NCBI GenBank assembly: GCA_013151775.1
Contig: JAADHO010000367.1
Span: 1 to 45,671 of the forward strand
From: Deltaproteobacteria bacterium
Lineage (GTDB): Bacteria; Myxococcota_A; Polyangia; Polyangiales; Houyiibacteriaceae
Direction: 5' to 3'
Length of the DNA: 45,671 bases
The position numbers and the translations under genes are program-made. The notes beneath the pieces are model-generated. The model had not been told where the DNA came from and searched no databases. It saw only the letters and a list, made by a program, of their open reading frames with translations. This document shows positions 3,028-28,306 of the stretch, piece after piece (position 1 is the stretch's first letter; every line of letters starts with the position of its first letter).

Positions 3028-3076
3028 GGACCCATCATACCGACTTCAGGTTCCGGAGCCGCCGCTGGCCTTGATC

Positions 3077-10183: not shown

Positions 10184-12313
10184 CTACGCTCCCGCCAACC
10201 CAATCCACGCGCTCGGCTTGCCGTGACTCGTGATCAGCACTTCGCGCCGGGCTCTCGTGGCCGCTACGTAGAATAGCGCTCGCTCTCGCATCTCGGCCTC
10301 TTCGCGCACGGCGCGGTCGTCGGAGCGGAGGTCGCCGATGTTGAGGGGTACGACGCCATCATTGACGCCTGCGATGATGATGCGGTCGAACTCGAGGCCT
10401 TTGACGCGGTGCATGGTGGCGAGGCGAAGGCCGGGCAGGTCTTGGTCGTCGGCTTCGGTGCGGCTCAGGCGTCGGGTCTCGACTCCGAGCTCGACGAGGG
10501 CGGTTTCGTACTGCTCGAGGAGCTTGTTGGTGCGCGTGACGAGGCAGGTGCGGGATGCGTCGGCTGCCGCAACGAAGTCGCGGATGGCGTCCACTTCGTC
10601 GCGGAAGGTCTCGCAGGGCGTGACCGTGGGAGGCTGTCCGTGGAACAGGGATTTGTAGCGGGAGTTGCTGTCTCGGCCGCCGTCGAGGTCGTCGACGTCG
10701 ACGTTCTGAAGTAGGGCGACCGCGAACTTTCGGATCTCGTCGGTGGTTCGGTAGTTGATGTAGAGCTTGCGACTTCGGCCGACGATGTGGACGCCCGCCC
10801 GCTTCAGCACGACTTTTCTGCGGTAGATGCGCTGGTGTCCATCACCCACGATGAAGAGGTCGTTGGGCTGCTCGATGGGGATGATGGATCGCAGGAGCTG
10901 GAAGGCGACGGTGCTCATGTCCTGCGCCTCGTCGACGATGATGGCTCGGTAGGAGGGCTTGTTGTGGCCGGAGACGAGCAAGTTCGCGGCGTCGCGCATG
11001 GCGTCGACGCTCTCGCGCAGGTTCTTGGCCTCGAGCAGGTTCCGGTACTCCTCGAACACGGGCCAGATGCTCTTACGCTGCGCGCGACTCAGGCGGACGC
11101 CGCGCCCGGCCCGACTCGCCTGACGGTAGTCCTCGTAGCTGGCGCAGCCGTCGGGCTGAACGACGTAGTCCCACTCCTCTCGGAAGAACTGTGCGCTGAA
11201 CTCGGGCGGTCGCAGCGCCACGGCCTTTTCCCACAGGGACTTCAGAGGCTCGGTGGGCCAGTACTGGATGCGGTACTCGTAGCCCTGTCCACGCAGATAG
11301 TCGGCGACCCATTTGTCGAGGTGGATCACCTCGATGCGCCGCAGGGTGGCGGGCGAGCAGAGCTTGGCGAGGCTCGCTTGGATGTCCCGCGCCAGGTTGT
11401 TCGTGAAGGTGGTGAAGAGCAGGCGATCCGCGTCCTGCTTGAACACCTCGGTGACGAGATAGCGCGCGCGATGCATGGCCACGACGGTCTTGCCTGTGCC
11501 TGCACCGCCGAGGGCACGCGCGGGTCCGTTGAAGTGCGCTCTGACGAGCTTCTGCTGGCTGGGATGGAGGAAGGTTCGCCACTTCTCCAAGGGTGCGTCG
11601 AGGATGGCCTCGAGCTCTTGATCATCGGCGACCAGCACGAAGCGGCGCTGCGTCGCGGGCTTCTCGAGCGCGGCGATGAAGTCCTGCGGGTCGACGACCG
11701 TGGGTGCATCGATCGCCATGGATTGGCGCACGGCTTCGAGTGACTCGCCCGAAGCGAGGAAGAAGAGGGCCTCGTAGGCATCGGTCGGAAAGACGTCGGC
11801 GATCACGTCGAGCTGCTCCGGCGCGTAGAGCTCACGGACGGTTCCAAGCTGCTCAGCGGGTACGCCCAGCGAGGTCAGCTCGTCGTCGCTCCACTGCCCG
11901 AAGATCGGGTGCTGCTCCTTGGGCGGCGGGCGCGTGGACTCGAGCTTCTTGGCGCTCTCCTCGGGGGTGGCGCTGAGCACCTGCAGCGAGCCGGTGTCCG
12001 GGTGAATCACGAAGCGTTTGCGCGCGGCCCACGCCATGGCCTCGTCGTGATGGTCGACCCACAGCAGGACGAAGAGGTTCCCGCGCTCGGGCTTGAGAAC
12101 GATGGCGCGATAGGCTTGGTCGATGCGCACCGTTCTGAGGTGTGGGTCGGCGAAGGTGCTGATGCGCTCGTAGTTGATGCTGGCGTTCGTCGGGTCCGAA
12201 CGGAACTTGCGAACGAAGCGGTTCACCTTCTTCTGCTGCGCCCTTGGCAGCTTCGCGAAGCTGTCGAGGAACTCGTCGAAGAGCGCCACGCGGAACTTGT
12301 CGTTGAGCATCAT
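10184..12313 (-). CDS. UvrD/Rep-type helicase with N-terminal RelE-like domain
   Basis: A 709-residue protein. Residues ~1-100 (FLDSFAKLPRAQQKKVNRFV, LRTVRIDQAYRAIVL, FVLLWVDHHDEA) have the order of a RelE/ParE toxin fold. Superfamily-1 helicase motifs follow: GGAGTGKT at 269-276, VDEAQD at 460-465, NYRTT near 520, TMHRVKGLEFD near 633-643 and FYVAATRARREV near 681. All are intact, so ATP-driven translocation on DNA or RNA is likely. It is the last gene of the DISARM-related operon: its first ATG overlaps the stop of the DUF1998 helicase as ATGA. A second ATG immediately follows. Helicases with RelE-like N-termini are known as a domain combination. Whether this one cleaves RNA, binds a ribosome or merely uses the fold for regulation cannot be told from sequence. 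UvrD helicases are not part of the classical DISARM core. Confidence 0.88.
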   Translation of the reverse strand: MMLNDKFRVALFDEFLDSFAKLPRAQQKKVNRFVRKFRSDPTNASINYERISTFADPHLRTVRIDQAYRAIVLKPERGNLFVLLWVDHHDEAMAWAARKRFVIHPDTGSLQVLSATPEESAKKLESTRPPPKEQHPIFGQWSDDELTSLGVPAEQLGTVRELYAPEQLDVIADVFPTDAYEALFFLASGESLEAVRQSMAIDAPTVVDPQDFIAALEKPATQRRFVLVADDQELEAILDAPLEKWRTFLHPSQQKLVRAHFNGPARALGGAGTGKTVVAMHRARYLVTEVFKQDADRLLFTTFTNNLARDIQASLAKLCSPATLRRIEVIHLDKWVADYLRGQGYEYRIQYWPTEPLKSLWEKAVALRPPEFSAQFFREEWDYVVQPDGCASYEDYRQASRAGRGVRLSRAQRKSIWPVFEEYRNLLEAKNLRESVDAMRDAANLLVSGHNKPSYRAIIVDEAQDMSTVAFQLLRSIIPIEQPNDLFIVGDGHQRIYRRKVVLKRAGVHIVGRSRKLYINYRTTDEIRKFAVALLQNVDVDDLDGGRDSNSRYKSLFHGQPPTVTPCETFRDEVDAIRDFVAAADASRTCLVTRTNKLLEQYETALVELGVETRRLSRTEADDQDLPGLRLATMHRVKGLEFDRIIIAGVNDGVVPLNIGDLRSDDRAVREEAEMRERALFYVAATRARREVLITSHGKPSAWIGLAGA

Positions 12314-15300
12314 CTCTCGTCTCCTGCGGCCGAGGCGTCGTGCTCGGCCTCCTCAGTTCGTCGCGTGATGGCTGCGACGACATCGCCGACGTCGTCCAAC
12401 ACTTCTTCTCGCTCGAAGACGAGCCAGTCGTCCGCGACCGGACTCGCTCCCTCCTTGTCGCGGCTCTCCACGATGGCCACGCGAGCGTCCATCCACACCA
12501 GCTCACCCTCGATGCCACACGAGAAGTCGTGCTCGTCAGGCAGGTCGATCCCGGCCTCCGGCAGCGGCAACTCCTCCGCGGCGAGCGCTTCCGCGACGGG
12601 CACGAAGGAGCTGCTGACGTCCAGCCCGAGCCACGCCTCGTCTCCTGCGTCGCTGGGACCGGAGCGGAGCCGCAGCAGAGGCTCGAAGCTGAGTTGGTCG
12701 TTGCCTCGGCGCGTGACGAACCAAATATGCGGGAGCACTCCCAGGAACTGGAATACCCGCAGGAAACCTCGCCACGTCTTCCGGAACTCCGCGGTCTCCA
12801 CGCGCTCGTCGCTGTCGTCGAGCCAGATGAGCACGCGATAGTCGTCGATCAGGGAGGGATCCCGCACAGCGCTCGGAGGTGCGGCTGCCCACACGCCGAT
12901 GGATTCAGCGTCCTCCGCTGGCCGCCTCACGAGCAGCCAGTCGTCTTCCACGGCTTCGAAGACGGGGTGCGCGGCGATGGGAGAGTGCGCGCGTACCTCG
13001 TCGCGCCATTCGGAGCGATCCACTTCGTCCGGACGAGACATCTGCGCGATGATGGAAGCGGTCGCCAGCTTGCTCCACGGCACCGAGTCCGCGGGGTCGC
13101 GTCCGAGGCTCTCGACGAAGAGCTGGAAGAAGGGCTCATCGAAGAGTGCAGCCCAGCGGCCCAAGCCCAGGCGATTCAGCCATCCCGTCAGTTCGGGCCG
13201 CTTGGGGTGCAGCAGGAAGGGCGCGTCCTCCACGTCGCCATGGAATGCGGCGTCGACGTCCCACCAGGAGAAGCTCCACACGTCGTAGCTGCCCGTGCTG
13301 AGCAGGGCCATGCGCTGGAGCATGTCCTTGCCCACGCGGTCGCAGTGGAACTGAAAGCCGTCGAGGAAGATCGCGATGGGTTCGCGCTTGGAGTCGCTGC
13401 CCGAGTGGAATACGAAGTCGATCGAGACCGGCGGCGAGAAGCCATCGCCGTGCCCCAGTTCGAGCTGCTGCTCCACGTTCCATACATGTTCGCCGACGGA
13501 GATCCGGAAGCCGGGTTTGTTTCGGACCATGCGCTTCTCGACGGTCACGGGGCGACCGGGCTTGTCCATGCGCCGGAACGCCTCGATGAAGCGCGCTTCC
13601 AGGATGCTGTCCATCATGCCGCTGACGCTGACGTCGGAGAGTGACTCGATGGGCTTCAGCTTGTCACGGTGGGCCAGGATGCCCCCGAAGAGTTCGACCG
13701 CCTCTCGGGCCGACGTCTCCGCCATGTCGCGGCTGTTTCGATAGGCGAAGAGGCAGCGATAGCAACCGTCACGCTCTGGATCTGTGGAACAGGTGCACTC
13801 GCGGATGCGGTCGAGGCCACGTTGCAGAATGTCGAAGAGCGGGTGCTCTTGGCCGTCCTCCGTGCGCGCGAGCGTGAAGTCCTTCAGGTAGCCGGTGCCG
13901 CCGGGCACCGTGTCGTAGAGTACGAGGTACTGTCGGCGCAGATGCGAGTTCGGCTCGGGCTCGCTGTAGACGAGCGTGCGCAGATGGTCGACGCGTCCGC
14001 CGTATTTGTCGCGCAGGCCGAGCTGAAAGGCCGCGACGAAGGAGTGGAGCTGACGCTCCGTGCTCACCTCGGAGAGCGGCAGCAACATGCGCAGCGCCTC
14101 GGAGGCGAACTCTCGGTAGAGATACACCGCCGCCTGAAAGTCTTGGTCCGCCGCAGCCTTCTTGCGCGCCGGGCACCAGAGCGTGTGCTCGGGCCCGGGC
14201 GCATCCTTGCCGCGCTGGCGTCCCGGCCGTTCCCTCGGCTGCACCTTGCCGCAGTGCTTGCAGATCACGAAGCCCTTCCGCACCTCGTCGCGCCCCGCGA
14301 TGCTGAACTTGCTGCCCTGATCCGTGAACTCGCCGAAGTTGAACTCGCGGAAGCTGGCCCGACTCAAGTACTCGAAGGCGAAGGGCATGGAGGCTTCGTC
14401 AACCCGCCACGCACCCTCTCGATCCTGGTCCTGGAAGGTCAGGAGCATGTTGCGGTTGTAGTGACGCGGCTGTCGCTCCTCTTGGTCGTCTCGTATGCGG
14501 CTGGCCCGGTCACTCGTGTTCGCGAAGACCTGACTCAGGCGCAGGAGCTGCCTCTTCTGGCTCTCCTCGCCCCACGCGGCGCTCCCGCAGGAGGGGCAGT
14601 CCTTGTTCGGGTCTTCGAGGTCGACGCTGACGCAGTGACTGCATTGGTCGCAGAATCTCCACGTCTCGAGGCTCGACGTCGCCACGTCCACCTGATCGAT
14701 GGTCACATGGCGTCCGCCCGCGAAGAAGCGATTCTCGGGAGCCAGCTCTCCGAGCGCCGCCATGGCAGGCCGAGCGTATTCGTAGGTGCGCGTCTCGTAG
14801 GCGCTCCTGTCCTTCTCGCTTCGGTGCTGCTTCTTCTTCCAGACGACGGAACGAAGTCGCACGGGCGATTCGGGGAAGGCGTAGTTCGGGAGCAGGCCCT
14901 CATTCGTCAGGAATTCGATCGTCTGCTTGTTCTCGATGCTCTTCACGAGGTTCAAGAGCGCGTCCTTCTCACGCCTTCGGGCGTCGAGCAGCTCCTCGTG
15001 ATCTTGGTCCTTCGCCTCCGCGCTCTTCATCTCCGTGATCAGCTTCTGCAGCCGGCGCGCGTTCGAGCGCAGCGACTCGCACTGCTTGCGCTCGGACCGC
15101 AGTCCGTCGAGCACCTTCCAGCCGAGGCTGCCTTCGTTCTTCTTGTCGCCGACCAGGAAGCTCCGCAGGTGCTCCCTCGAGGTGTCGCTGAGCCGCTCTC
15201 CGAAGAGGCCGAAGAAGCTGGTCAAGAGAGCCTCTTCGCGCCCACGCACGAAGGAGAGCCAGTTCTGTGGAAAGTGATCCGTCTTCTCGTCGTCGAGGTG

Positions 15301-18300
15301 ACTGAAGACCTCGCGAAGCCTCCGCGCGATGGCGTCCTTGGCCGCGCCCGCCAAGTTCCATTGGTCCAGGGTGAAGGCAGCGAGCTGACGCTCCAACACC
15401 GCGGAGGCGTTCAGGAACACACCCGGCGGCCGCACCTGACCTGCGATCATCTCCTCGGGTTCGGCGTAGAAGTAGAGGTCGTGGGGTTTGGCTTGCGCGA
15501 AGGTGAGCAGCAACGAGTTGCCGTCGCGGCGTCCCGCGCGTCCGACGCGTTGCAGATAGTTCGCTTGCGCAGGTGGCACCGAGCACAGGATCGCCGTGGA
15601 CAGGGCGCCGATGTCGATGCCCATCTCCAATGTCGGCGTGCAGGAGAGCAGGTTCGGATACCAGGGCTTACGCTCCGCGCCCTCGGCCTTGAACTCGTGC
15701 TCCACGTGTTCGCGCACCGCTCGTGTGAGCAGGCCGGTGTGCTCGGAGGTGAACACCCGCTCGACCTCGCCGTTGGCGTAGAGGCGGCCGAAGTAGTCGG
15801 CCCGCTCCGCCTGTGCAGCGTCCCGCGCCTCGTCTGCGTAGGAGCCCGGGCAGCGCGCCGTGAGGCACGTCATCGTCGTCCAAGCGTCTCGCTCGGCGGC
15901 CGCGACCGTCATCCAATGATGGCACGTGCCGCAGCGAATCCGCGCGGTCCCGGTCGTCAGCCGAAGCGCCTCGGGTCGCAGGCCCCAGACCTGCCCGCGC
16001 TTGCCGTCCGTCTGCTTCAGCAATCCCGATTTCACCAGACCCGCGAGCACCAGAATCCAGATGTCCGCGGGCGCGCCGATCAGCGTGGAGGTGTCGGCGA
16101 AGCAGCGCTCAGCCCAGCGTTCGTACCAACTGCCGCCTGAGCTGCTGCCGCGAAGCAGGAGCCTCTCGAAGCGCGACGTTCGCGTGTCGGTGGTGAGCAG
16201 CGCCGGCAGTCGGCTGCCGCGTCCGAAGCGCGGAAGGTGCTGATAGCCCGGCCGGTTGAAGGCGTACCAGTCTTCGCCCGCGGTCTCGACGAAGGAGGCC
16301 GGCAGCTCCGAGTGGTGGATGCCGCCTCGCTCGCGCAAGTGATGCAGCGCGCCGAGCAGGAAGCTGCGCAGCGTGCTCCGCGTCAGATTCGTGAGACCGC
16401 CGATCTCGTTTTGCAGGGGCTCGAGCAGCGCATCCGTGGCGCCGTCCAGCAGCTCGGGATCGATGGCGACCGTCGAAGAGCCCGTGCGCGCGAGGGAACG
16501 CCCGATACGCGCTTGGTGCCCGTACTCGGTGAAGATCTCGAAGGCGATTCGCCGCTCGACCGACTTGGCCAGGCCGCTGCCCGACGGAAGCTCGCCGGTG
16601 TCGAGCAAGCTCTCGTAGTCGTGCAGCCACTCCATATTGGGTGGCAGGAAGGTCGTGACGAACTGAACGTCGCGCTCCTTGCTCTTGGGCTCGCCCCGCC
16701 AATGCGACGCGAAGGCTTTGGGCAATTCGGCCAGGGAGATGCCGTCGTGATCTCGCACGACTTGCTGCAGCGCGACGCGCAGGTTGAAGCGCCAGGTGCG
16801 AGCGCCGAAGAAGCCCGCTCGGTGCGAGGCGTCCTGCACCGAGTCCGAGAAGGTGAGCAGCTTCTTGTCGTCGTTGAAGGACGAAGCGAAGAGTTGATCG
16901 ATGTAGACTGCGGTGAGCGTGGTCGCCCGGAAGCCGAGCAAGGTGAGGCTGCCCCGGGCGTCGCAGAATGGGCAGTCGCGGTGGAGGCGCTGCTTGCCGC
17001 CGACGGTCTCCAGATTGTCCGAGACGACGAGCTCGAACTTGTCCTCGGGTGCGACCTCCGTCTCGTCTTCCTCGCGGATGCGGGTGAGCGATCGACGATC
17101 CAACGGGAAGCGCTCGACCGCTTGCCACACGTCTCGGTCGGAGTGGTCCGGCCACAGGAAGCGGACCTGAGGGTCGTTGCCAAAGAAACCGCGATAGAAG
17201 CGCTCGAGCCCGGTGCGATACTCGTCCGGACGGTCCCGCGTCACGAGCGTGCCCCAGCCCATCGCGCCGCAGTCGCGGCAGTGGACCAGCGGCAGATGCT
17301 GCTTGCGTTGCTCCTCCGTGAGGTCGTCGGAGAAGCGCAGCTTCGGCTCGCTCCCGAGGTCGGCGACCATGCGGCGAAGCTCGCGCTGCCAGAGCTGCAG
17401 TCGCACCTCGAGTAGCGGCCGCGTGCGACGGCTGCCTCCCTCGGCTTCTCGCTGCTCGCGGGCTTGCGCTCGCTCCGGCAACCATGAGCGCGCCTCCGAC
17501 ACCAGCGAGAGGAACGACACGAGCACGGCGTGGGCGAGCTCCGGATCACGCCCGAGCCGCCGCGACGTGCGCGACAGCCCCTTGGCGAGGTCGTCGAGGG
17601 AGAGGGGTTTGTCGCCGAGCAGCGTGAGCAGGTTGCGCAGCATGCCGGAGGCCAAGAGCTGTGTGCCGAGCGCCACGTTCCAGGCGTCGGTCCCCGGTTC
17701 GTGGTCGATCTCCTCGTCGAACCACAGCGCCTGCTGCGCGGCGATGTACTCGGCGGGCGTGGCGTATCTCGAGGGGTCCAGCTCGGCGCGGTGCTTGGCC
17801 GACGGCGTGCCCGCGAAGTCGATCAGAGCGTCCCCAAAGAACTCCGCGGGGAGCTGCCGGGTCTCGGTGATGACGGAGTCCGTGTCGAAGTCCTCGCCGA
17901 AGATGTCGTGCGCATAGGCGCGCAGGCCCTCGGTGGCTTCCTCTGCGGCGTCACCGCTGCCGCCGAGCGTCGCGGACGTGCCGACGCAGCAGAGCTCGCC
18001 GGGCTTCACCCCGAGGCTCTGCTTCAGCCGCCGAAGCAAGCAGGCGAGGTCTGTTCCCTGCGCGCCATCGAAGCTGTGCAGCTCGTCCACGACCAGGTAG
18101 CGCAAGGCGTCGCTGCCGCGGTTCTCCGCCCACAGCTCCTGATCCGTGGGGCGGGCCAAGAGGTAGTCGAGCATCTTGTAGTTGGTCAGCAAGATGTCCG
18201 GCGGGTCGAGCCGCATGCTGTCGCGATCCGAGATCACGTGGGCAGCGCCCATGGACCGCTGGGCGTGGCGCTTCTCCCCGGGGGACTCGCCGATGTAGAG

Positions 18301-18771
18301 GCCGGCCCGAACGGCGCCGCGCAGCTTGGAATTTCCGTGAATCGCCCGCGCGATGCGCAGGGCCTGATCCGTGGCCAGGGAGTTCATGGGGTAGATCAGG
18401 ATGGCCTTGATGCCCGGCGTGCCGATCTGCTGTCGGCAGTGCTCGAGGATGGGCCAGAGGAAGCACTCCGTCTTGCCCGAGCCCGTGCCCGTCGCGACCA
18501 GCGTGCTGCGGCGCGCGGCCAAGCGCGTGAAGGCGCGCTCCTGATGCAGATGCGCTGGGAACCCGAGCGGCAGCTCCGGGAAGAACTCGCGATCGTCGCC
18601 TCTGCGGAAGGGCAGGCTGACCGAGACGTAGGGCCCCTTGAAGACCGCCCCCTCGGTGTCGACGAAGCGGTCGATGACCGTCTCCATGCCCGGCGTGGAG
18701 GACCAGAAGCTCATGCGCAAGAAGTCGCTGAGCCCAAGCTGAAGTTGGCCACTGAGGGCTGCGGGGATCAT
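12310..18771 (-). CDS. Giant DEAD/DEAH helicase with DUF1998 (DrmA/DruE-like)
   Basis: A 2153-residue protein from the ATG at 18771, which has GGAG 7 bases upstream. An in-frame ATG at 19071 would add 100 residues of pure repeat translation, has no good ribosome site and overlaps the preceding gene. Walker A ATGTGSGKT is at 93-101 and the DELH box at 229-232. The C-terminal helicase lobe carries EMGIDIG and QRVGRAGR. Several CxxC zinc pairs follow (CRDCG, CPFCD, CGTC, CDQC, CPSCG, CKHC), then the DUF1998 region (VPGGTGYLKDF, DGCYRCL). Residues ~1717-1845 look like a Vsr/DUF559-type nuclease fold (SIDFVF, IFLDGFQFH, then VWSFSW). DUF1998 helicases define DISARM (DrmA/DrmB) and Druantia (DruE). 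This one combines helicase and DUF1998 in a single chain. It is co-transcribed with the adjacent ATPase and helicase and coupled by ATGA to the UvrD gene. A system name cannot be fixed by eye. Confidence 0.9.
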   Translation of the reverse strand: MIPAALSGQLQLGLSDFLRMSFWSSTPGMETVIDRFVDTEGAVFKGPYVSVSLPFRRGDDREFFPELPLGFPAHLHQERAFTRLAARRSTLVATGTGSGKTECFLWPILEHCRQQIGTPGIKAILIYPMNSLATDQALRIARAIHGNSKLRGAVRAGLYIGESPGEKRHAQRSMGAAHVISDRDSMRLDPPDILLTNYKMLDYLLARPTDQELWAENRGSDALRYLVVDELHSFDGAQGTDLACLLRRLKQSLGVKPGELCCVGTSATLGGSGDAAEEATEGLRAYAHDIFGEDFDTDSVITETRQLPAEFFGDALIDFAGTPSAKHRAELDPSRYATPAEYIAAQQALWFDEEIDHEPGTDAWNVALGTQLLASGMLRNLLTLLGDKPLSLDDLAKGLSRTSRRLGRDPELAHAVLVSFLSLVSEARSWLPERAQAREQREAEGGSRRTRPLLEVRLQLWQRELRRMVADLGSEPKLRFSDDLTEEQRKQHLPLVHCRDCGAMGWGTLVTRDRPDEYRTGLERFYRGFFGNDPQVRFLWPDHSDRDVWQAVERFPLDRRSLTRIREEDETEVAPEDKFELVVSDNLETVGGKQRLHRDCPFCDARGSLTLLGFRATTLTAVYIDQLFASSFNDDKKLLTFSDSVQDASHRAGFFGARTWRFNLRVALQQVVRDHDGISLAELPKAFASHWRGEPKSKERDVQFVTTFLPPNMEWLHDYESLLDTGELPSGSGLAKSVERRIAFEIFTEYGHQARIGRSLARTGSSTVAIDPELLDGATDALLEPLQNEIGGLTNLTRSTLRSFLLGALHHLRERGGIHHSELPASFVETAGEDWYAFNRPGYQHLPRFGRGSRLPALLTTDTRTSRFERLLLRGSSSGGSWYERWAERCFADTSTLIGAPADIWILVLAGLVKSGLLKQTDGKRGQVWGLRPEALRLTTGTARIRCGTCHHWMTVAAAERDAWTTMTCLTARCPGSYADEARDAAQAERADYFGRLYANGEVERVFTSEHTGLLTRAVREHVEHEFKAEGAERKPWYPNLLSCTPTLEMGIDIGALSTAILCSVPPAQANYLQRVGRAGRRDGNSLLLTFAQAKPHDLYFYAEPEEMIAGQVRPPGVFLNASAVLERQLAAFTLDQWNLAGAAKDAIARRLREVFSHLDDEKTDHFPQNWLSFVRGREEALLTSFFGLFGERLSDTSREHLRSFLVGDKKNEGSLGWKVLDGLRSERKQCESLRSNARRLQKLITEMKSAEAKDQDHEELLDARRREKDALLNLVKSIENKQTIEFLTNEGLLPNYAFPESPVRLRSVVWKKKQHRSEKDRSAYETRTYEYARPAMAALGELAPENRFFAGGRHVTIDQVDVATSSLETWRFCDQCSHCVSVDLEDPNKDCPSCGSAAWGEESQKRQLLRLSQVFANTSDRASRIRDDQEERQPRHYNRNMLLTFQDQDREGAWRVDEASMPFAFEYLSRASFREFNFGEFTDQGSKFSIAGRDEVRKGFVICKHCGKVQPRERPGRQRGKDAPGPEHTLWCPARKKAAADQDFQAAVYLYREFASEALRMLLPLSEVSTERQLHSFVAAFQLGLRDKYGGRVDHLRTLVYSEPEPNSHLRRQYLVLYDTVPGGTGYLKDFTLARTEDGQEHPLFDILQRGLDRIRECTCSTDPERDGCYRCLFAYRNSRDMAETSAREAVELFGGILAHRDKLKPIESLSDVSVSGMMDSILEARFIEAFRRMDKPGRPVTVEKRMVRNKPGFRISVGEHVWNVEQQLELGHGDGFSPPVSIDFVFHSGSDSKREPIAIFLDGFQFHCDRVGKDMLQRMALLSTGSYDVWSFSWWDVDAAFHGDVEDAPFLLHPKRPELTGWLNRLGLGRWAALFDEPFFQLFVESLGRDPADSVPWSKLATASIIAQMSRPDEVDRSEWRDEVRAHSPIAAHPVFEAVEDDWLLVRRPAEDAESIGVWAAAPPSAVRDPSLIDDYRVLIWLDDSDERVETAEFRKTWRGFLRVFQFLGVLPHIWFVTRRGNDQLSFEPLLRLRSGPSDAGDEAWLGLDVSSSFVPVAEALAAEELPLPEAGIDLPDEHDFSCGIEGELVWMDARVAIVESRDKEGASPVADDWLVFEREEVLDDVGDVVAAITRRTEEAEHDASAAGDER

Positions 18772-18778
18772 GAGTCGG

Positions 18779-18782
18779 CTCC
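18779..18782 (-). promoter_or_regulatory. Ribosome binding site fixing the DUF1998 helicase start
   Basis: On the - strand GGAG stands 7 bases before the ATG at 18771, a standard Shine-Dalgarno spacing. The rival in-frame ATG at 19071 is preceded by a C-rich stretch without a purine motif. This places the repeat arrays in the untranslated gap rather than in the protein. Confidence 0.6.
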
Positions 18783-18796
18783 GGAGGGTCGCTCTT

Positions 18797-18901
18797 TGTG
18801 TGTGGAGTCCGCGCCCTTGTGTGTGGAGTCTGGCTCCTTGTGTGTGGAGTCTGGCTCCTTGTGTGTGGAGTCCGCGCCCTTGTGTGTGGAGTCGGCTTCG
18901 C
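18797..18901. repeat. Tandem array, 5 x 21 bp
   Basis: The 13-mer TGTGTGTGGAGTC occurs five times at exactly 21-bp spacing (starts 18797, 18818, 18839, 18860, 18881). Each is followed by an 8-base variable tail in the order A-B-B-A-C, where A is CGCGCCCT, B is TGGCTCCT and C is GGCTTCGC. The core is perfectly conserved while the tails vary, as in protein-binding iterons, and 21 bp places each copy on the same face of the helix. The array lies in the gap before the DUF1998 helicase. In the - strand frame of that gene it would encode a seven-residue repeat (LHTQG+2), but the start choice makes it untranslated. Confidence 0.9.
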
Positions 18902-18973
18902 TTTGGGTAGTGGTTTGGGTAGTGGTTTGGGTAGTGGTTTGGCGGGTGGTTTGGGTAGTGGTTTGCCGGGTGG
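18902..18973. repeat. Tandem array, 6 x 12 bp, abutting the 21-bp array
   Basis: Six 12-bp units directly follow the 21-bp array with no spacer. Units 1, 2, 3 and 5 are TTTGGGTAGTGG, unit 4 is TTTGGCGGGTGG and unit 6 is TTTGCCGGGTGG. A seventh degenerate start (TTTGCG) follows. Read on the coding (-) strand the unit is CCACTACCCAAA, purine-poor and unlikely to fold, so in RNA it would be an unstructured leader. Both array periods are multiples of three, so copy-number change would not shift any frame through the region. Confidence 0.88.
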
Positions 18974-19024
18974 TTTGCGCAGACCTCACCACCGTGTACG
19001 AGGTGCCTCGGCGCTGTAGCCCGC

Positions 19025-20467
19025 TCACTCCCCCGCTCCGAAGAGGTCGAGCTGCTCTGCGACCGAGGCATAGGTCGTGGGGGTCTGCGCCGCGTCCGCG
19101 TCGGGCACGAGCGTACCGAGGTACTGGATGACTTCGCCCTTGGCGATGGGCACGACGTCGCCGACCTTCATTCGCCACGTGCCTGCGCACGGTCGCGCAA
19201 TCAGCGCCCGGTACTGTCCTGGTTTGGCTCCCGGAGCATCCCGATGATCGACGAAGACGAGGTCGTTGGGGTCGCTATGCGCCACCACCACGGGCGAGTG
19301 CGTGCTGACGATGACCTGACGCAGCGGGTTGGCCTCGTCGACGGCCTCGCTCGTGTCCGTCGCCATGTCGGCGAGGAGCTTCATCATCGCGCTCATCCGC
19401 TCTGGATGAATGCCGTTCTCTGGCTCCTCCAAGCAGACGAGACCGGTGGCCGCGTGGTCGGCCTCGATGACGCTGAGCGCCACAAAGCGCAGGGTGCCGT
19501 CCGAGAGCGAGGCCGCGACGAACTCCCGGCCCGAAGCGTCCGTCAGCACGAGCTGAAGCAGCCGCCTCGCGTCGTCTCGTCGCACCTCGATCTCGCGAAC
19601 GTCGTCGACCAGGCCGGCTAGACGGTTCGAGACCTCGGCGAGCACTCGCGAACCATCAGGCCCCGACGCCAGGCGATACAGGGTCGCCGGGAGGTGTCGT
19701 CCCCCGACGGTGAGAGAGGACGGCGCGTCCAGCTCATCAGGAACACGAAGGGATGACGGCTCGAGCTGCAAGATCCGCCAAGACCGCATCTCCGCTCGAG
19801 CGAGCACGGCGGTGCGCGCCTCGTCGGCGTTCTGCGCGGCCGAGAGCACCGTGCGTGGCAGCGTGGACGCGAGAAAATCGCTGGGCTTGCCGCCGCCGCG
19901 CTTGGTCTTGGAGCCACCACGCATCTTGTCCGTGCTGAGCCGGATGCGGGTCTGGCCGCCCTCCTCAATCGTCTCGATGTACTTGGCGCGGCGGTGCGAC
20001 TTCTTGATCACCGAGTCGCGCCACTCGCGCTCGCTCTTGAAGCCCAGTCGGGTCTTCGCCTCGTGCTGGGTTACGTAGCGCAAAGACTCTTGCCGCAGCT
20101 CGATGCGCTCGAAGCCCTGGTCGTCCCGCACGAGCGCGATCTCCAGCAGGTAGGTCAAGAAGCTGTGGCTCGCCTCGGCGACCTGATGGAAATCGTCTTT
20201 GCCCTTCAGCGGCGTGATCAGATCGCACTCGAAGCGCATTACGCCATCGCCGCCCGCGGTGAAGAGGCTGGACACATCGGGCCCCCCGCGAGACAGCTTG
20301 GCGGCCTCGAGGAAGCTGTGGTCGGCGAGCAGGCTGATGAAGCGGATCGCGTCGAAGATGTTGGACTTGCCGACGCCGTTGTAGCCCGCGATGCAGGTGA
20401 AGGGGCCGAACCTGATCTCGGTGTCGACCAGGTTCTTGAAGCCAGTGACCTCGAGTCGTGTCAGCAT
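19025..20467 (-). CDS. RecF/OLD-like AAA ATPase of the DISARM-related operon
   Basis: A 480-residue protein. It begins MLTRLEVTGFKNLVD, the classic start of RecF/SMC-type AAA_15/AAA_21 ATPases. Walker A GYNGVGKS is at 28-35. Near the C-terminus are the Walker B/signature region LEEPENGIHP and STHSPVVV, matching the H-loop of this family. No TOPRIM domain is evident after the ATPase, which ends with ~70 residues including EVIQYLGTLVPDAD, so it is not a full OLD nuclease. It starts 40 bases after the methyltransferase gene and is followed by the repeat arrays and then the DUF1998 helicase. Such ATPases often act as DNA-end sensors or as motors for partner nucleases. A role coordinating the helicases here is inference. 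The classical DISARM core has no such ATPase, which makes this an added component. Confidence 0.87.
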   Translation of the reverse strand: MLTRLEVTGFKNLVDTEIRFGPFTCIAGYNGVGKSNIFDAIRFISLLADHSFLEAAKLSRGGPDVSSLFTAGGDGVMRFECDLITPLKGKDDFHQVAEASHSFLTYLLEIALVRDDQGFERIELRQESLRYVTQHEAKTRLGFKSEREWRDSVIKKSHRRAKYIETIEEGGQTRIRLSTDKMRGGSKTKRGGGKPSDFLASTLPRTVLSAAQNADEARTAVLARAEMRSWRILQLEPSSLRVPDELDAPSSLTVGGRHLPATLYRLASGPDGSRVLAEVSNRLAGLVDDVREIEVRRDDARRLLQLVLTDASGREFVAASLSDGTLRFVALSVIEADHAATGLVCLEEPENGIHPERMSAMMKLLADMATDTSEAVDEANPLRQVIVSTHSPVVVAHSDPNDLVFVDHRDAPGAKPGQYRALIARPCAGTWRMKVGDVVPIAKGEVIQYLGTLVPDADAAQTPTTYASVAEQLDLFGAGE

Positions 20468-20507
20468 GTTGACTCTTTACCGCGTTCTCGCGCGCGTGGG
20501 TAAATGG

Positions 20508-23500
20508 TCATGGGCGGCCCGTCGCGAAGCGCTGCTCGAAGTGGGCCCAGGCGGTTTCGTAGTCTTGTTCGCGGTCGCAGCGGTCGAAGGGGGCTTGGTA
20601 GGTGATGGTGCGCTCGCGGGGGCCGCCGGGGAGGGTGTCGTCGAGGAGCGTGCGCTCGACGCTGCCGGACTGCATGTGTTGGACGTCTTCCCAGCCGGGG
20701 GTGGGGTCGCCCTTCTTGGCTTTGCGGGGCAGGCCGACGCCGACGAGGCCTTTGGAGTTGGTGAAGACGATGCGACCCTTTCGGTCGTACCAGGTGTCGG
20801 CTTCGTAGCCGCGCATGACGTAGAACTGCGCGCGGTAGAGGGTCTGTAGCTGCTCGAGGCTGAGGCCGAGGGCCATGGAGACGAGCACGTCGATCTCGAC
20901 CAGCGCCTGACGCCGGGCGTAGTCCGTGCGCAGGGGAGTCTCCCATGTCCATTGTGGCGTGAGCGCCTCGAAGTGGGCGTCGTCGAGGCGAGCATCGGCC
21001 TTGGCCCATCCATCGGCGCGGAAGGCGGAATCATAGACCTCGACCCAGAGATCGGCGTAGTGCGTGGTGAGGCAGTTGAGCAGCAGCGTGCGAGCGAAGA
21101 GCTCGGGGAGGTGTTGGTTGGGAACGGGAAGCTGGCGCGCAAGACTGGGTTGCAAGTGACCAGCCCCAGTTGATTTGACGAAGAAGTCGACCGGCGTGGA
21201 CGACCACGAAGCCGTGCTCGCGAGTAGCTCGGCGACACGGCCAAATGCGTAGGAGTTCACGGTATGGATGTGAGCCGCACCGCGTGATGTCAGGGCAGGC
21301 TGGTGCGTGCGTTCGCCGGGCGGGCTAATCATGTTTGGCACGACGATCCGATAGAACGCCGTCACCGGCGGCTTGTCGCCCCACGGCACCTTCGGCGTGC
21401 GCTTGGCGTAGTCCGCGGGCGAGCAAGCGGGCAGGTAGTTGGTGCGAGGCAGGTAGTCCACCGGCAGCGTCGTCAGGTCGAGGATGTCGTAGTGGCTATT
21501 GTTCGTGCAGACGCCGCGCGGCGTCTTGTAGTGCGGGTTGCCGACGAAGAAATGTGGGCCCGAGAGGATGAGTTCATTGGAAGTCTTGGCGAAGCGCGTT
21601 TCTCGCCGAATGCTGCCGTCCTTCTGCGCATACACCTCGTTGAAGTGGAACGTAGCGAACCAGTCGTCCACGTCTGCGAGCCGGCGCGGAGCCTCGCGGA
21701 ACTGCTGCAGCACACCGACGAGCTGCCTCGAATACACAGCGGGAAGGCGCGCGCGCAGCGCGGATGTGCCGGGAGGATCGTAGAGCGCCGCGAAGAGCTC
21801 GAGCTGTTCACTGCCCACGTTTACAATACGGTCCCGATGGCCTTGCACAGCCCAGACGCCATGCTCCTTGATGCCGGGCACGGGTCCGCCTCCGAGGTGC
21901 GCGTGACACGCCTCGATCGTGCTCGGCGTGAAGAGGTTGGCGAGATGGACGAAGCTCGGCTGTGGGCGGGCAGGGCCGTAGATGTTGATGCTGAATCGAA
22001 CTTGGTCGTGGACTTCGTGAAACAGAAACAGTGCATTTGCGAACTGATAGTGGCGGCGCAGGCGCGGATAGAGCGCCTGCCGCAGCCCGCCGCCTTTGGG
22101 GTCGTCGTACACGCCCTCCGGGTGCAGCAGCCCGCTCGTGCCCTCTTCGTTCGTCCAAGACCACGCTACGGGCAGGAAGCATTTGTAGAGGTTGGGTTTG
22201 ATGCCTTCGAGCTCCGCGTAGTTCTGCGTGCCGGACAGGAAGCCCTGCGTGCCGGCGGCAGCCTCATGCGCTTCCAAGTACGAGCTGCGATTTCCGAAGC
22301 GGGCGAAGGTATCTTCGCGAAGGGCGGTCGCTTCCATGGCCGAGAGCTTCTTCAGCACGAAGGAAGGATCGACGTCTGCGAGTGCGTCCTTCTCCGACCA
22401 CTGCACGCGAATCCACGGCGGATTTCCCAGCATCAGGTCGAAGCCGCCGCGATCTTTGAAGAGGTCGGCGAATTCCAGCTCCCAATGGAGGAAGCGGTAG
22501 CGGGTCGAGAGCTGCTCTACGAGCTGCAGGCGCTCGCTGCGGGCGACCACCTTGTCCACGTCTACGACGCCTAGCTCCTTGGCCAAGGCGCGCGCCTCGT
22601 CCGCGGGCATGGTCGCGCCGAAGAGCGACTGCTGCGCCTCGCCTTGGAGCGTGTCGAGCACGTCCGTGTCGAGCAGCAGGGCGAGATCCGAGAGGTACTC
22701 GTCGCGGTCGGGCAGCAGCTCCGCCTGCTCGATGGGCCAGAACCAGAGGGCGCACCAATAGTCCATGGCCAGCTTCAGCCGGCGGTAGGGGCTCGCCGCG
22801 CGCACCTCCTTGGACTCCATCTCGCCGCGCCAGATGGCGTCCTTCTCGGCCGTGGTCGTCGGCTTGCGGGCGTCCTTGGGCAGCGGCTTGCCGTAGACCT
22901 CGAGCGGGTCGGTCGTGCGCGCGCGGATCCTTCGCAGCAGGCCGACATGCTTGTCCCAGAGCCTGTCGACGGCGTCCGAGAGCTGCACCAAGGCCTCGTG
23001 GTCGGCGCCCTCCACAGGCGCGCAGAAGTCCCCGCGCCAGTCTTCGATATGCTTCAGGGCGTCGGCCGCCATCTCGCGGATGGGCTTGCCCTCGTTGCCT
23101 TGGCCGTAGACGGACATGCCGCGGTCGCCAAGCAGGAAGTGGTAGACGGCGCCCTTCGGTCGCGTGGTGCCGAGGGGCACGCGCTCCGGTACGGCGTCGA
23201 GGTAGTCCGCGCGCTTGCCGTCACGCCCCGAGGCGACTGCACTCTTCTTGAACACCTGTCGGCGCGCGCCCACCAGCGAGTTGCCGCACACGGTCTGGCC
23301 GCCGAACCAAGGCACGAAGCCGCCCTCGTGGATGGTGTTCAGCCACAGGGACACCTCCGCGAGCTCCACCGCGATGGGGTTCAGGTCGACGCCGAAGACG
23401 TTGTTGTCGGCGAGGTACATCTTCACGCGCTGCTTCTCGAAGGCGTAGCGGTCGTGGGCGATGCGCTGCCCGAGCTCGCGCTGCTTCGCGCTGAGGTACG

Positions 23501-25388
23501 CCTCGGCGAGCTGATCCACCGCTTCGTTGAGGAAGGCGGCGCTGCCCATCGCCGGCTCGCAGACCGTCAGCTCGAGCATCTCGTCCGCGCTCAGCTTCGG
23601 TTGGCCGTCTTCGTCCGTGAGCCGCTCCCGCAGGGCGTACTTCACGACGGCGCGCGTGAGCGACTCGGGCGTGTAGTAGGAGGCCGAGGTCTGACGGTCG
23701 CGTCCGGCGAGCCGGTAGATGAACGTGCCCTTGGGGTAGCGCTTCAGCTTGCCGGCGGCGTCGTAGACGCGTTCCGTCTTCTCGTCGTACTTCGATAGCT
23801 CCGACTCCGGCACGAAGTAGGCCGTCTTCAGGACGTCGTGCTCTTTCTCCTTGGCGGGCTTCACCTCGAAGAGATCCGTCTCCGCGAAGAAGCCACGATA
23901 CGAGAGCAGCGCCTCGTAGACGGCGCCGAGTTGGTTGATGCCGAGGGTCGCGTACGAGATGCGGCCGCGGCGCTTCACCTTCTTGCCGCCCCGCTTGGAG
24001 CCCGGTCGAGTCAGCGACATGTGCTCGATCACGTCGCGCAGAACGACGTTGTCGAACTTCACCGTGTTCAGGAAGGGCGTGCGCGCCGGGTCGAAGAGGT
24101 GCGTGCGCAGCGGCTTCAGCTCGAAGGTGCCGTGGCGCGAGAGGCTGAGCTCGCCGTCTTGATCGGGCGACATCACCGACTGCTCAGCGGGCGTCGCGCC
24201 GTCGTGGATCATGCGGAAGAGAAGCTGGATGCTCTGGTGGATGTAGGTGCCGGCGCGATCTTCGGGATCTGTGAGGTCGAGCTGCTCCAGGTCGCGCAGG
24301 CGCTCCAGGCTGTATCCAAGGCGGTAGGCGTCGGAGCCGAGGGGCGCGTAGCCAAGCTCGGGCCTCGCCTCGATGTAGAAGAGGAAGAGCAGCCGATACA
24401 TGTAGCGGAGGCACTCGCGGCTGAGCTGCTCGGGGTCGATCTCTTCGCCGAAGACCTTCTTCTTCTGCGACTTCCGGTACTCGATGGCCGCGTTGCCTAG
24501 GCTCTCGATGCACGCCTGCAGCGCGTACTTCAAGTCTTCGGAGACCGAGAAGGCGTGCTTGTGAGAGCTGTCATCGAGCGAGTCGATCAGCGGCGTGCCG
24601 TCCTCGGGGGCGAGGCTCGAGCGGTGAAGCAGCGCCGCCACCACCTCGAGGGTGTCGCTCTCACGCCGTGCGAGGATCTCCTCGAGATCGAAGCGCATGA
24701 GGCGCTGCTCGGCCCACTTCGTGCGTTCGAGCAAGACGATGTCGGAGTGACCGAGGATGAGCACGAAGCGTGGCGGCTCCTCGAGCCCGAAGGCCTCCGT
24801 GGCCAGGTCTTCGACCGCGACGCCTTGCGGGAAGCGAAGCTCGCTCCGGTCCCCGTCTCGGGCGGCCTCGTCGAGCTGCTCGGGCATCAGCTGGCATGCG
24901 AGCGTGGCCTCGTCGGTCGCCGCGCCCGCGCTTGGGTCGGTGGCGTCGTCGCCTCCATTGCGCACGAAGGGCCGCGTGGCCGGGATGCACCAGACCAGCG
25001 GCGTGCCGTCCGCGCGCTCGACCTGGGCCAGCAGCGGAATGTGCCCCGAGGGCAGCTCCACGACCGCGCGCCGCGCTACGTAGCCCAGCGTGGACAGCAC
25101 GGGAGCGAAGGCGTCGCGATGGGCCTCGACGCGCGCGGCCGCCGAACGCAGCCGCTCCATCTGATCGAGGTAGCGGAAGAAGCCGCGGTGCTGCGCCGAG
25201 AGCGCCTGGGGCGGGGTCTGACTCGACGCGCCGCGCTTCGCCTTGCCGGAGCTGACTTGCTTCTGGCGTGCGGCCTGCTCGCGCCAGGCGTCCAGGACGG
25301 GCTTCAGGTCACCCTTCAGGATCGCGGCCAGGTAGTGCTGCGTGAAGAACTCGTTCTGGTCTTCGATGCCAATGAACGCGTGGCTCAT
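20508..25388 (-). CDS. Large N6-adenine DNA methyltransferase (DrmMI/PglX-like)
   Basis: A 1626-residue protein. Class I methyltransferase motifs are visible: SYYTPESL near 570, motif I EPAMGSAAFL at 611-620 (SAM binding), NVFGVDLNP near 663 (motif II) and catalytic NPPW at 989-992, the gamma-type N6-adenine signature. The ~550-residue N-terminal and ~600-residue C-terminal regions match the size of Eco57I/PglX/DrmMI enzymes, where they serve for target recognition and regulation. No N-terminal PD-(D/E)xK nuclease is apparent, so this is a modification enzyme without its own cutting domain. Its ATG overlaps the stop of the SNF2-type helicase as ATGA, the pairing seen for drmD-drmMI in class 1 DISARM. 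By inference it marks host DNA so that the helicase complex ignores it. Confidence 0.9.
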   Translation of the reverse strand: MSHAFIGIEDQNEFFTQHYLAAILKGDLKPVLDAWREQAARQKQVSSGKAKRGASSQTPPQALSAQHRGFFRYLDQMERLRSAAARVEAHRDAFAPVLSTLGYVARRAVVELPSGHIPLLAQVERADGTPLVWCIPATRPFVRNGGDDATDPSAGAATDEATLACQLMPEQLDEAARDGDRSELRFPQGVAVEDLATEAFGLEEPPRFVLILGHSDIVLLERTKWAEQRLMRFDLEEILARRESDTLEVVAALLHRSSLAPEDGTPLIDSLDDSSHKHAFSVSEDLKYALQACIESLGNAAIEYRKSQKKKVFGEEIDPEQLSRECLRYMYRLLFLFYIEARPELGYAPLGSDAYRLGYSLERLRDLEQLDLTDPEDRAGTYIHQSIQLLFRMIHDGATPAEQSVMSPDQDGELSLSRHGTFELKPLRTHLFDPARTPFLNTVKFDNVVLRDVIEHMSLTRPGSKRGGKKVKRRGRISYATLGINQLGAVYEALLSYRGFFAETDLFEVKPAKEKEHDVLKTAYFVPESELSKYDEKTERVYDAAGKLKRYPKGTFIYRLAGRDRQTSASYYTPESLTRAVVKYALRERLTDEDGQPKLSADEMLELTVCEPAMGSAAFLNEAVDQLAEAYLSAKQRELGQRIAHDRYAFEKQRVKMYLADNNVFGVDLNPIAVELAEVSLWLNTIHEGGFVPWFGGQTVCGNSLVGARRQVFKKSAVASGRDGKRADYLDAVPERVPLGTTRPKGAVYHFLLGDRGMSVYGQGNEGKPIREMAADALKHIEDWRGDFCAPVEGADHEALVQLSDAVDRLWDKHVGLLRRIRARTTDPLEVYGKPLPKDARKPTTTAEKDAIWRGEMESKEVRAASPYRRLKLAMDYWCALWFWPIEQAELLPDRDEYLSDLALLLDTDVLDTLQGEAQQSLFGATMPADEARALAKELGVVDVDKVVARSERLQLVEQLSTRYRFLHWELEFADLFKDRGGFDLMLGNPPWIRVQWSEKDALADVDPSFVLKKLSAMEATALREDTFARFGNRSSYLEAHEAAAGTQGFLSGTQNYAELEGIKPNLYKCFLPVAWSWTNEEGTSGLLHPEGVYDDPKGGGLRQALYPRLRRHYQFANALFLFHEVHDQVRFSINIYGPARPQPSFVHLANLFTPSTIEACHAHLGGGPVPGIKEHGVWAVQGHRDRIVNVGSEQLELFAALYDPPGTSALRARLPAVYSRQLVGVLQQFREAPRRLADVDDWFATFHFNEVYAQKDGSIRRETRFAKTSNELILSGPHFFVGNPHYKTPRGVCTNNSHYDILDLTTLPVDYLPRTNYLPACSPADYAKRTPKVPWGDKPPVTAFYRIVVPNMISPPGERTHQPALTSRGAAHIHTVNSYAFGRVAELLASTASWSSTPVDFFVKSTGAGHLQPSLARQLPVPNQHLPELFARTLLLNCLTTHYADLWVEVYDSAFRADGWAKADARLDDAHFEALTPQWTWETPLRTDYARRQALVEIDVLVSMALGLSLEQLQTLYRAQFYVMRGYEADTWYDRKGRIVFTNSKGLVGVGLPRKAKKGDPTPGWEDVQHMQSGSVERTLLDDTLPGGPRERTITYQAPFDRCDREQDYETAWAHFEQRFATGRP

Positions 25389-28306
25389 GTGGCCTCGCCT
25401 TCGCCGAAGCCGCCCTCGGGTCGCAGCACCGCCAGCACCTGCAGGAAGGGCACGGGCTCCGAGGTCATGGCCGCCTCGACCCAGGTCAGGTAGCTGTCGA
25501 AGATGCGGTGGATGCGCCGCTCTTCGCGTTCGCGCGTGGCACGCTTCGCCGGGTTCGCGGCGGTCGTCGCCTCGAGGTGAGCGAGCTGACGGGCGCGCAG
25601 CTCTTCGAGACGGTCCAGCTCCTGCTGAAGCTTCACGTTGATGTCCCGCTCGAAGACCTTGCGGCGCTCCAACATGGCGGCGCGCGTGGCGTCGATGGCA
25701 GGCGCGATCAGGGCCCGCAGCGCGTCGAGGTCAGCGGGCGCTCCGCGGTTCGGCAGAGGCTTCTGACCGAGCTTCAGCTCGCGGGAGAAGTCCCCGAAGT
25801 CATCCAGGGAGGCGAGCACGCCGTCGCGGAATCGGGCCGCGAACCAGCGATGCACCAGCGCTTGGCTCTGACGATTCGGCAGCAGCCCGGAGACCACGAC
25901 CACCGCCTCGTCCGCTTCGAGGCCGTGCAGCAGCGTGAGCACGGGAGCCGTGTGGCGGCCGAAGAGGGCGCGCGCCTTGTCACGGCACCACTCGACCACC
26001 GGGCTGAGTGGCCAGAGGAAATGCAGGCGAGGCCAGGCGGATTCCTCCCGGCGCGCGGCGACGATCTCCTGCTGCATGCGAGCCCGATCCGCGGTCAGGA
26101 CGATCACGCCGTCGTCGGGCACGACCTCGGCGGGCAGCTTGCGGAAGCGACGACGCAGGTCGAGCGCAGGGAGCTGAGCGCGGCGTGACTCCTGCGTATC
26201 AGGCGGGATCTTCAGCTCGATGATGCCGTCCTCGGCGCGCACCTCGCGCTGAACGCCCTCGGACTCCGCCAGCCAATCGAGGGCGGCCGCCACGAAATCG
26301 AAGTCGGTCTTGAAGAGGGAGAGCGGATCCTTCGGCGCGGCGCTCGCCACCGGTCCACCTGGACCTTCTCCCAGCAACAACTCCAAGGGATCGATGGCCA
26401 CGCCTTCGCCGAGCTGGGCATCGAAGGTCTCGACATCGAGGCCGTCTTCCATCGCCTTCGCGGTGATGCTGGTCTCGTCGTCGATGTTGTAGACGCCCAT
26501 CAAGGCAGAGGGGTCACCGATGTTCTTGGTGGCTTGGTCGTCGCGGTCGGCGAGCAGCTCGAGGATGCGCGCGTCGCCGTGGATCTGCTCCGTCTCCGAG
26601 TCCGTGAGCATGTAAACGATCTGAGGCGCCTGCTCCTGCCCATAGCGGTCGATGCGACCGTTGCGCTGGGCGAAGACCATCAACGACCAGGGGACGTCGA
26701 AGTGAATCAGGCGGTGGCAGAGGTAGTGGAGGTTCAGGCCTTCCGACGCGACGTCGGACGCGAGCAGCAGGCGCACCTTCGACTCCAGCTTGCCGAACTC
26801 CTCGACGATGTGTTGTTGGTCGAGATCCGAGCCGCCGTGGAGCAGGGCGACCTGATTGTCCTTCAGCTTCAGATCCTGCTTCAGGTGCTGCTCGAGGAAG
26901 CGGAGCGTCTCGATGCGCTCCGAGAAGATCACGAGGCGGTCGTCCTTCTTGGACGCCTTCCAGCCGAAGCCCTTCTTCTTGTCTTTGATGACCTGGAGCA
27001 GCTTCTGATACTTGCTGAATTCCTGAACACCGATCGCGGCGACCGACTCATCGAGAGCCCGCAGAGCCTCCACGTCTGCCTCGAACGCGCCCGCGTGCTG
27101 GGGCTTGCTGAGCGTCGCGATGCGCTTGCCCAGGGTCTGACGACAAGCCGCGGGGCTGCTGAACAGCGCCTTCACCAGCGTCGTCTTGAAGAGCATGCCG
27201 CCGTGCGCCCGCTTGTCCGTGCTGGAGAACTCGAGGTCGACCAGACGCTGATAGGCAGACTCTTCGGCCTCGGAAGCCTTCGCGTGGGCCTTGGCGATCG
27301 TCCGCTCCGGGAACGCCTTTCGGACCTGATCCTGCACATCCCTCTTGAAGCGACGCAGGAAGAGCCCATCGATCTCGTCGCGCGTGTACTCGTCCGGGTT
27401 CGCGATGGCCGTCGGGTCCAGCATGTTCATCAGGCTGGCGAAGCTGCGCGCCTTGCCGTCGTGGGGCGTGGCGGAGAGCAAGATCAGGTGGTCCGAGCGC
27501 TCCGAGAGCAGCTGCGCGATGCGGGCTCGCAGTGAACGGGAGCCGCCCCGGATGGCCACATTGTGCGCCTCGTCGATCACGATGGCGTCCCAGCGCGCGT
27601 TCTCCACATGAGCGCGGATGGCCTTGTTCTGCGCCAGCGTGTCGATGGAGATGATCGACTTGTCGTAGAAGTAGAAGGGATTGTGGTTGGTCGGGATATG
27701 CGCCCGGATGCGCTGCAGCCCGATGGAGTCGAGCCGGAAGAGTGGGATGGCGAAGCGCGCCCACATCTCCTTCTGGAACTGCGTGAGCATCGCCTTCGTG
27801 ACCGCCACCAAGATGCGCTTGCCGCGACCCCGGCGGATCAGCTCCGACAGCAGAATGCCGCACTCGAGCGTCTTGCCGAGTCCGACCGCGTCCGCGATCA
27901 GAATGCGCGAGCGCGTCTGGGCCAGAGCCATGCGAGCCGGGTCCATCTGAAAGTCGAGCACATCCATCGCCGCGCGGTGCCCGATGTGCAGCTCCGGCCC
28001 CGTCGGAGGCACATCGCGGAGCATGCTCTCCAGATAGAGCAGCGACGAGCGGTGCCCAGACGACGTGTCGACCTCCAGCTTCGTCTCCGCCGGATCGAGC
28101 ACCTCCACCCCGTTGCCGAGCGTCGTCTCGTACTCCTCCAGGAAGATCGCGTCCTGATCGCGCACGATCTCCGAGATGCCCACAACGCGCCAAGCCGCCT
28201 TGCCCGTGCTCGTCTGATCCACCTGCACCACGCGCCAGATCGCGTCGCGGACCACAATATGCGCGCCCGGCGCGATGGGACTCTGCGCCGCTGACCTCAC
28301 CGCCAT
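25385..28306 (-). CDS. SNF2-type DEAH helicase (DrmD-like), first gene of the operon
   Basis: A 973-residue protein from ATG 28306, preferred over an ATG 16 codons upstream because GGAGG sits 9 bases before it. Walker A DAVGLGKT is at 139-146, DEAH at 245-248, then LLSATPHDG. The C-terminal lobe has GLNLHYLCHRLIHFD and QRNGRIDRYGQ, typical of SNF2/RapA-type translocases. N-terminal residues ~1-90 form a small beta-rich domain (HIVVRDAIWRVVQVD). The C-terminal ~300 residues include long charged helices (LQQELDRLEELRARQL). Length and order fit DrmD, the SNF2 helicase of class 1 DISARM, which is encoded directly before drmMI. It is followed by the methyltransferase with an ATGA overlap. It probably moves on double-stranded DNA. 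RapA-like transcription factors are the nearest alternative but lack this context. Confidence 0.9.
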   Translation of the reverse strand: MAVRSAAQSPIAPGAHIVVRDAIWRVVQVDQTSTGKAAWRVVGISEIVRDQDAIFLEEYETTLGNGVEVLDPAETKLEVDTSSGHRSSLLYLESMLRDVPPTGPELHIGHRAAMDVLDFQMDPARMALAQTRSRILIADAVGLGKTLECGILLSELIRRGRGKRILVAVTKAMLTQFQKEMWARFAIPLFRLDSIGLQRIRAHIPTNHNPFYFYDKSIISIDTLAQNKAIRAHVENARWDAIVIDEAHNVAIRGGSRSLRARIAQLLSERSDHLILLSATPHDGKARSFASLMNMLDPTAIANPDEYTRDEIDGLFLRRFKRDVQDQVRKAFPERTIAKAHAKASEAEESAYQRLVDLEFSSTDKRAHGGMLFKTTLVKALFSSPAACRQTLGKRIATLSKPQHAGAFEADVEALRALDESVAAIGVQEFSKYQKLLQVIKDKKKGFGWKASKKDDRLVIFSERIETLRFLEQHLKQDLKLKDNQVALLHGGSDLDQQHIVEEFGKLESKVRLLLASDVASEGLNLHYLCHRLIHFDVPWSLMVFAQRNGRIDRYGQEQAPQIVYMLTDSETEQIHGDARILELLADRDDQATKNIGDPSALMGVYNIDDETSITAKAMEDGLDVETFDAQLGEGVAIDPLELLLGEGPGGPVASAAPKDPLSLFKTDFDFVAAALDWLAESEGVQREVRAEDGIIELKIPPDTQESRRAQLPALDLRRRFRKLPAEVVPDDGVIVLTADRARMQQEIVAARREESAWPRLHFLWPLSPVVEWCRDKARALFGRHTAPVLTLLHGLEADEAVVVVSGLLPNRQSQALVHRWFAARFRDGVLASLDDFGDFSRELKLGQKPLPNRGAPADLDALRALIAPAIDATRAAMLERRKVFERDINVKLQQELDRLEELRARQLAHLEATTAANPAKRATREREERRIHRIFDSYLTWVEAAMTSEPVPFLQVLAVLRPEGGFGEGEAT

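Follow-up and report, generated by a model that had tools for sequence, protein, structure and literature searches.

A likely ARMADA Type II operon of the Polyangiales that carries an accessory HEC-01A-type ATPase in its armB/armC cargo slot

ARMADA Type II consists of a BrxHII-like helicase, a PglX-like methyltransferase, a YprA-like helicase and a RelE-fused GajB-like helicase, which are encoded in strict order (Bell et al. 2025, PMC12458937). In E. coli all four ARMADA genes are needed, and the defense is direct and non-abortive (PMC12458937). Second defenses inside defense operons have been described for other hosts. In a Type I restriction system DarTG2 is located between hsdS and hsdR, likewise at a boundary between modification and restriction (PMC12255303), and BREX loci carry auxiliary effectors, OLD-ABC among them (PMC12839542). 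The PADLOC family name HEC stands for 'Hma-embedded candidate', and judging by this name the family first came to attention as a passenger within a different operon. While the core ARMADA system and the embedding of one defense within another are known, the cargo slot described here, which lies between the A-B and C-D gene pairs of ARMADA, is new; in the literature that we searched, including Bell et al. (PMC12458937), we found no accessory slot described for ARMADA. Here the second defense is hosted by ARMADA II, with a strong preference for one junction.

The window, by which we mean the whole 45,671-nucleotide stretch analyzed (contig JAADHO010000367.1, from a member of the Polyangiales), very probably holds a complete ARMADA Type II operon with an accessory HEC-01A-type ABC ATPase embedded in the armB/armC cargo slot. 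The five minus-strand genes that the original prediction had placed in one unit are all real by an ORF check of the sequence. They encode a BrxHII/DrmD-like SNF2 helicase (armA, 25385..28306; 313 bits to the DrmD profile and 203 bits to BrxH), a PglX/DrmMI-like N6-adenine methyltransferase (armB, 20508..25388; recognized by profiles), the ABC ATPase, which lacks its HEC-01B partner (19025..20467), a YprA/DruE-like helicase with an MZB (DUF1998) domain and a predicted C-terminal nuclease (armC, 12310..18771), and a RelE-UvrD (GajB-like) helicase (armD, 10184..12313). The armA start is most likely the ATG at 28306, and upstream of it the open frame extends to a TTG at 28354. Both ATGA overlaps reported earlier were found, at the A/B (25385-25388) and C/D (12310-12313) junctions, and the ATPase gene occupies the sole core junction without such an overlap, that of armB and armC, the latter encoding the giant helicase.

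Judged by sequence, four of the five genes make up a full ARMADA Type II system, with ArmA, ArmB, ArmC and ArmD. The window is colinear with the annotated ARMADA II locus of E. coli ATCC 8739 (49, 49, 38 and 46% identity for ArmA, ArmB, ArmC and ArmD, respectively), and it shares with the Type II systems of E. coli NCTC 12900 and ATCC 8739 (PMC12458937) the four core genes, their order and their domains, of which the ArmC nuclease is a probable one. All eight residues that were mutated in the E. coli system (Bell et al., PMC12458937) are conserved, and in the numbering of the window these are K161 and D261 of ArmA, G615 and N989 (NPPW) of ArmB, K100 and D229 of ArmC, and K275 and D461 of ArmD. 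The core genes lie on one strand in the order A-B-C-D. Unlike in E. coli, the second and the third are separated in the window by one extra gene, that of the ATPase, and by a repeat spacer. The colinearity and the eight conserved residues together indicate that the locus is a DISARM-related array that already has a name. The original prediction had allowed for this outcome; its other suggestion, a distinct DISARM-related class, did not hold.

The giant helicase scores 334 bits against DruE versus 46 bits against DrmA and has a fused MZB (DUF1998) domain, as is characteristic of the YprA-like, DruE-nearest helicase of ARMADA II. Within their limits the domain labels first given to the five proteins were correct, but the profiles place this helicase nearest DruE and not DrmA. 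The earlier view that DrmA and DrmB functions are merged in one 2153-residue chain was sustained, since the DrmA-like and DrmB-like parts belong to a single chain. No other Druantia gene (e.g., DruH) occurs among the five, and profile searches of the same five genes agreed with the prediction that a separate DrmB or PLD protein is missing. ArmC is 2153 amino acids long from the ATG at 18771, which agrees with the starts of its homologues. A longer, mechanically called ORF of 2253 amino acids, which begins at 19071 and runs back through the repeat spacer, was rejected because the homologues begin at the equivalent of 18771.

In ARMADA II a Vsr-type PD-(D/E)xK nuclease is fused to the ArmC C-terminus. 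Here the C-terminus contains seven invariant columns, mostly acidic residues, among 62 sequences. This region (13225..13701, minus strand) was modeled as a PD-(D/E)xK-like (Vsr-like) nuclease fold with moderate matches only (Z 6.1-6.8) to TnsA, BsoBI, 3hrl and 3r3p, and a search of its sequence profile against the PDB found nothing useful. ArmD matches the profile of GajB-like UvrD helicases, and its N-terminal domain (11975..12313, minus strand) adopts a RelE fold in a model with a pLDDT of 91, for which the best PDB matches are RelE, YoeB and YafQ. An N-terminal fusion of a RelE-like domain to a UvrD helicase is the arrangement of ARMADA II, and the RelE-UvrD gene is the core gene armD. Of the two motors that had been regarded as extra, only the AAA ATPase is so, and it has recognizable relatives in the slot of only two other loci of our set (L114 and L086).

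To place the ATPase gene in context, we gathered ArmC relatives from the taxonomic class of the window together with 80 loci across GTDB species, and mapped ArmA through ArmD on them by profiles. Junction counts were limited to loci readable on both sides, and a junction was called filled when the gap exceeded 300 bp. The armB-armC gap was filled in 33 of 59 loci, and all 33 gaps were longer than 600 bp, up to 9.2 kb; this fraction is indicative only, because similarity to ArmC guided the choice of loci and many of them come from draft or metagenome contigs. The same threshold was exceeded at 1 of 40 A/B junctions and 2 of 77 C/D junctions (Fisher p about 5e-9 and 3e-13, respectively, for the comparison with B/C, with the relatedness of the loci ignored). 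Among the 35 loci in which all three junctions could be read, B/C was filled in 18, A/B in 1 and C/D in 1. In empty loci armB and armC mostly overlap or almost abut. The two loci with C/D cargo are L071 and L112 (2.1 and 3.6 kb).

In the window the slot spans 18772..20507. At least 17 changes between filled and empty were counted on the ArmC tree, and the three closest relatives of the window on that tree (L043, L042 and L040) hold other cargo. One pair of loci provides a clean comparison, with a gap of 2 bp in L108 and 985 bp with one 315-amino-acid gene in L115, and their flanking DNA is 82-84% identical. Two genomes have two ARMADA II loci each, with differing cargo (L098 and L116; L105 and L112). 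The slot is not used everywhere, as E. coli genomes without cargo show. A junction query matched over most of its length in 500 of 5426 E. coli genomes, and among the 40 matches listed nearly all were contiguous at the junction, one having an IS3 element inside the stretch.

Several other arrangements were seen in the set. In two genomes (G314, with L184 and L185, and G313, with L048 and L049) armA-armB is on one contig and armC-armD on another, and the operon may be split at B/C; a gene for a WYL-domain regulator lies downstream of armB in L184. In genome G115 similar lipoprotein-like ORFs form a tandem family, which comes after the armB end on one contig (L189) and before armC on another (L045) and may fill the slot. 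A Micromonospora locus (L134) has armC-armD and 10 kb of upstream DNA without armB by profile, which makes it a possible C-D pair without A-B. In L042 (5405-14340, reverse strand) the end of armB is present in two copies with a RecQ-type-looking helicase ORF and another gene between them, and after the second copy PDC-M55A/B and GmrSD precede armC. From its sequence this arrangement seems to reflect several insertions in which the armB end was duplicated.

Cargo varies by locus and consists mostly of recognizable defense genes by PADLOC, Pfam and profile matches, including Gabija, Mokosh, Eleos-type, GmrSD, AbiE, a CBASS-like pair, SIR2, Schlafen, ZorAB and HEC-01. In the slot of L107 an OLD-TOPRIM (GajA-like) ATPase gene comes first, then a UvrD-like gene and a Schlafen-like one. 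Other slots hold MkoA of Mokosh (L084), LeoA and a dynamin (L113), ZorA2 and ZorB2 with a dynamin (L094), SMODS with a patatin (L112) or SIR2 (L096), while GmrSD recurs in L116 and L123 as well as in L042, AbiEii in L098 and L129, and Schlafen AlbA_2 in L043 and L064. PDC-M07A and PDC-M68B were found in L086 and L119, respectively, and HEC-01A, HEC-01B and PDC-S02 in L114. Likeness between slots is low: besides the close pairs L123/L130 and L116/L118, clear resemblance is seen only in L098/L129 and L097/L128, and weak ATPase signals link the window to L114 and L086. Several slots hold genes without a family match (e.g., L040, L093, L097 and L115), and L053, L056, L120 and a few others, with ORFs of no family, were counted as filled by length alone. 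Nearly all selected cargo genes are on the operon strand, which the selection itself favored.

What, then, is the ATPase of the window? It resembles HEC-01A along most of its sequence (315 bits), and although it belongs to the same broad ABC group as the PARIS ATPase, its score against AriA is far lower (91 bits) and no AriB-like gene is present. Relatives at E <= 1e-25 occur in 19 of 379 genomes of the phylum, its own included, and a plasmid search returned three distant records. No ARMADA genes were found beside these relatives in 17 genome neighborhoods and that of a Kovacikia plasmid (18 in total). In at least 12 of the 18 the ATPase gene is followed by one of about 215 codons, which PADLOC assigns to HEC-01B and Pfam weakly to DUF4276. 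The closest relative (71%) has this partner, and ARMADA genes were not found in its genome. Whether the ATPase and UvrD genes are conserved neighbors had been put forward as a check on the original prediction; the UvrD gene is one and the ATPase gene is not. By homology the protein corresponds to HEC-01A, the ATPase component of a candidate system of two genes, and is not part of the ARMADA core. It differs from HEC-01 as defined in PADLOC in that HEC-01B, for which no match was found anywhere in the window, is absent, and in that its setting is ARMADA rather than Hma.

A tandem-repeat array made of 21-bp and 12-bp units (18791..18978) separates the ATPase gene from armC. Both periods are multiples of three and the armC frame stays open back to 19071, and a 15-base piece of the 21-bp unit has no other occurrence in the genome. 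The array sits exactly where HEC-01B would be expected. One possibility, to which we give a somewhat less than even chance, is that the ATPase is a dying, functionless remnant of a HEC-01 pair whose effector was lost, with the repeats as the scar of the deletion. The missing partner and a genome-unique array in its place favor this explanation, which is compatible with an ARMADA II operon that has a cargo slot, but the frame of 480 codons and all ATPase motifs are intact. The dN/dS of about 0.22 relative to the 71% homologue suggests that the ATPase has been under selection, which need not have acted since its arrival in the ARMADA locus since the value does not date selection. The ATPase is either a decaying remnant or partnered with another effector.

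In the reading that we prefer, that of a complete ARMADA II operon with the ATPase as slot cargo, ArmB and the ArmA helicase would mark self DNA, ArmC with its helicase and predicted PD-(D/E)xK nuclease domains and ArmD would attack phage DNA, and the cell would survive. The slot lies where the A-B pair ends and the C-D pair begins. The genes of each pair are tightly spaced or overlapping, and cargo in the slot leaves both coupled pairs intact because it falls between them. Such cargo is probably co-transcribed with the operon and may act as a second layer of defense, and the ATPase of the window would be the sensor half of a HEC-01 module without its partner. Coordinated backup and a merely tolerated passenger would both be compatible with the sequence. 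A bolder and rather doubtful extension would make ARMADA II a platform whose second defense, at the fixed boundary of A-B and C-D, can be exchanged, with the cargo wired to the operon as a backup for when a phage blocks ARMADA. The boundary rule may then extend to other operons, e.g., hsdS/hsdR, and the effector-less ATPase of the window would be wired to ARMADA itself.

An alternative is that the locus is a five-gene variant in which the ATPase is a dedicated fifth subunit, with the ArmC nuclease domain or ArmD having replaced the HEC-01B effector. The absence of the partner gene would fit such a role, as would the intact frame and motifs, the low dN/dS and a codon composition that matches the rest of the operon. 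We nevertheless consider it unlikely, since the three nearest ARMADA II relatives hold unrelated cargo, the ATPase is absent from almost all other ARMADA II loci, the 71% relative keeps its partner in a genome where ARMADA genes were not found, and the dN/dS, as noted, carries no date. A variant of DISARM Class 1, with which the locus has DrmD and DrmMI homologues (ArmA and ArmB) in common, is highly improbable and was rejected on the profile scores of the giant helicase, the lack of DrmB and DrmC genes, the presence of the RelE-UvrD gene and the colinear ARMADA II match.

The operon has further defense genes around it. Directly downstream of armD (2353-9330, minus strand) are a gene whose 1601-amino-acid product matches PDC-M54A (492 bits), an overlapping gene of 483 amino acids and a 224-amino-acid ORF, a group that by its sequence is a candidate for another defense system. 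A YhcG-type PD-(D/E)xK nuclease (DUF1016_N, PDC-S02) is encoded at 42127-43308 (minus strand), and the contig is thus a wider defense island.

An 'extra' gene in an ARMADA operon should not be taken for a subunit before the slot has been considered. In many phyla ARMADA II operons have other defense systems at this one internal position, which makes it testable whether embedded systems back up the operon that hosts them. Reading the slot across genomes would be a direct route to new defense genes, since the genes in several slots belong to no known family.
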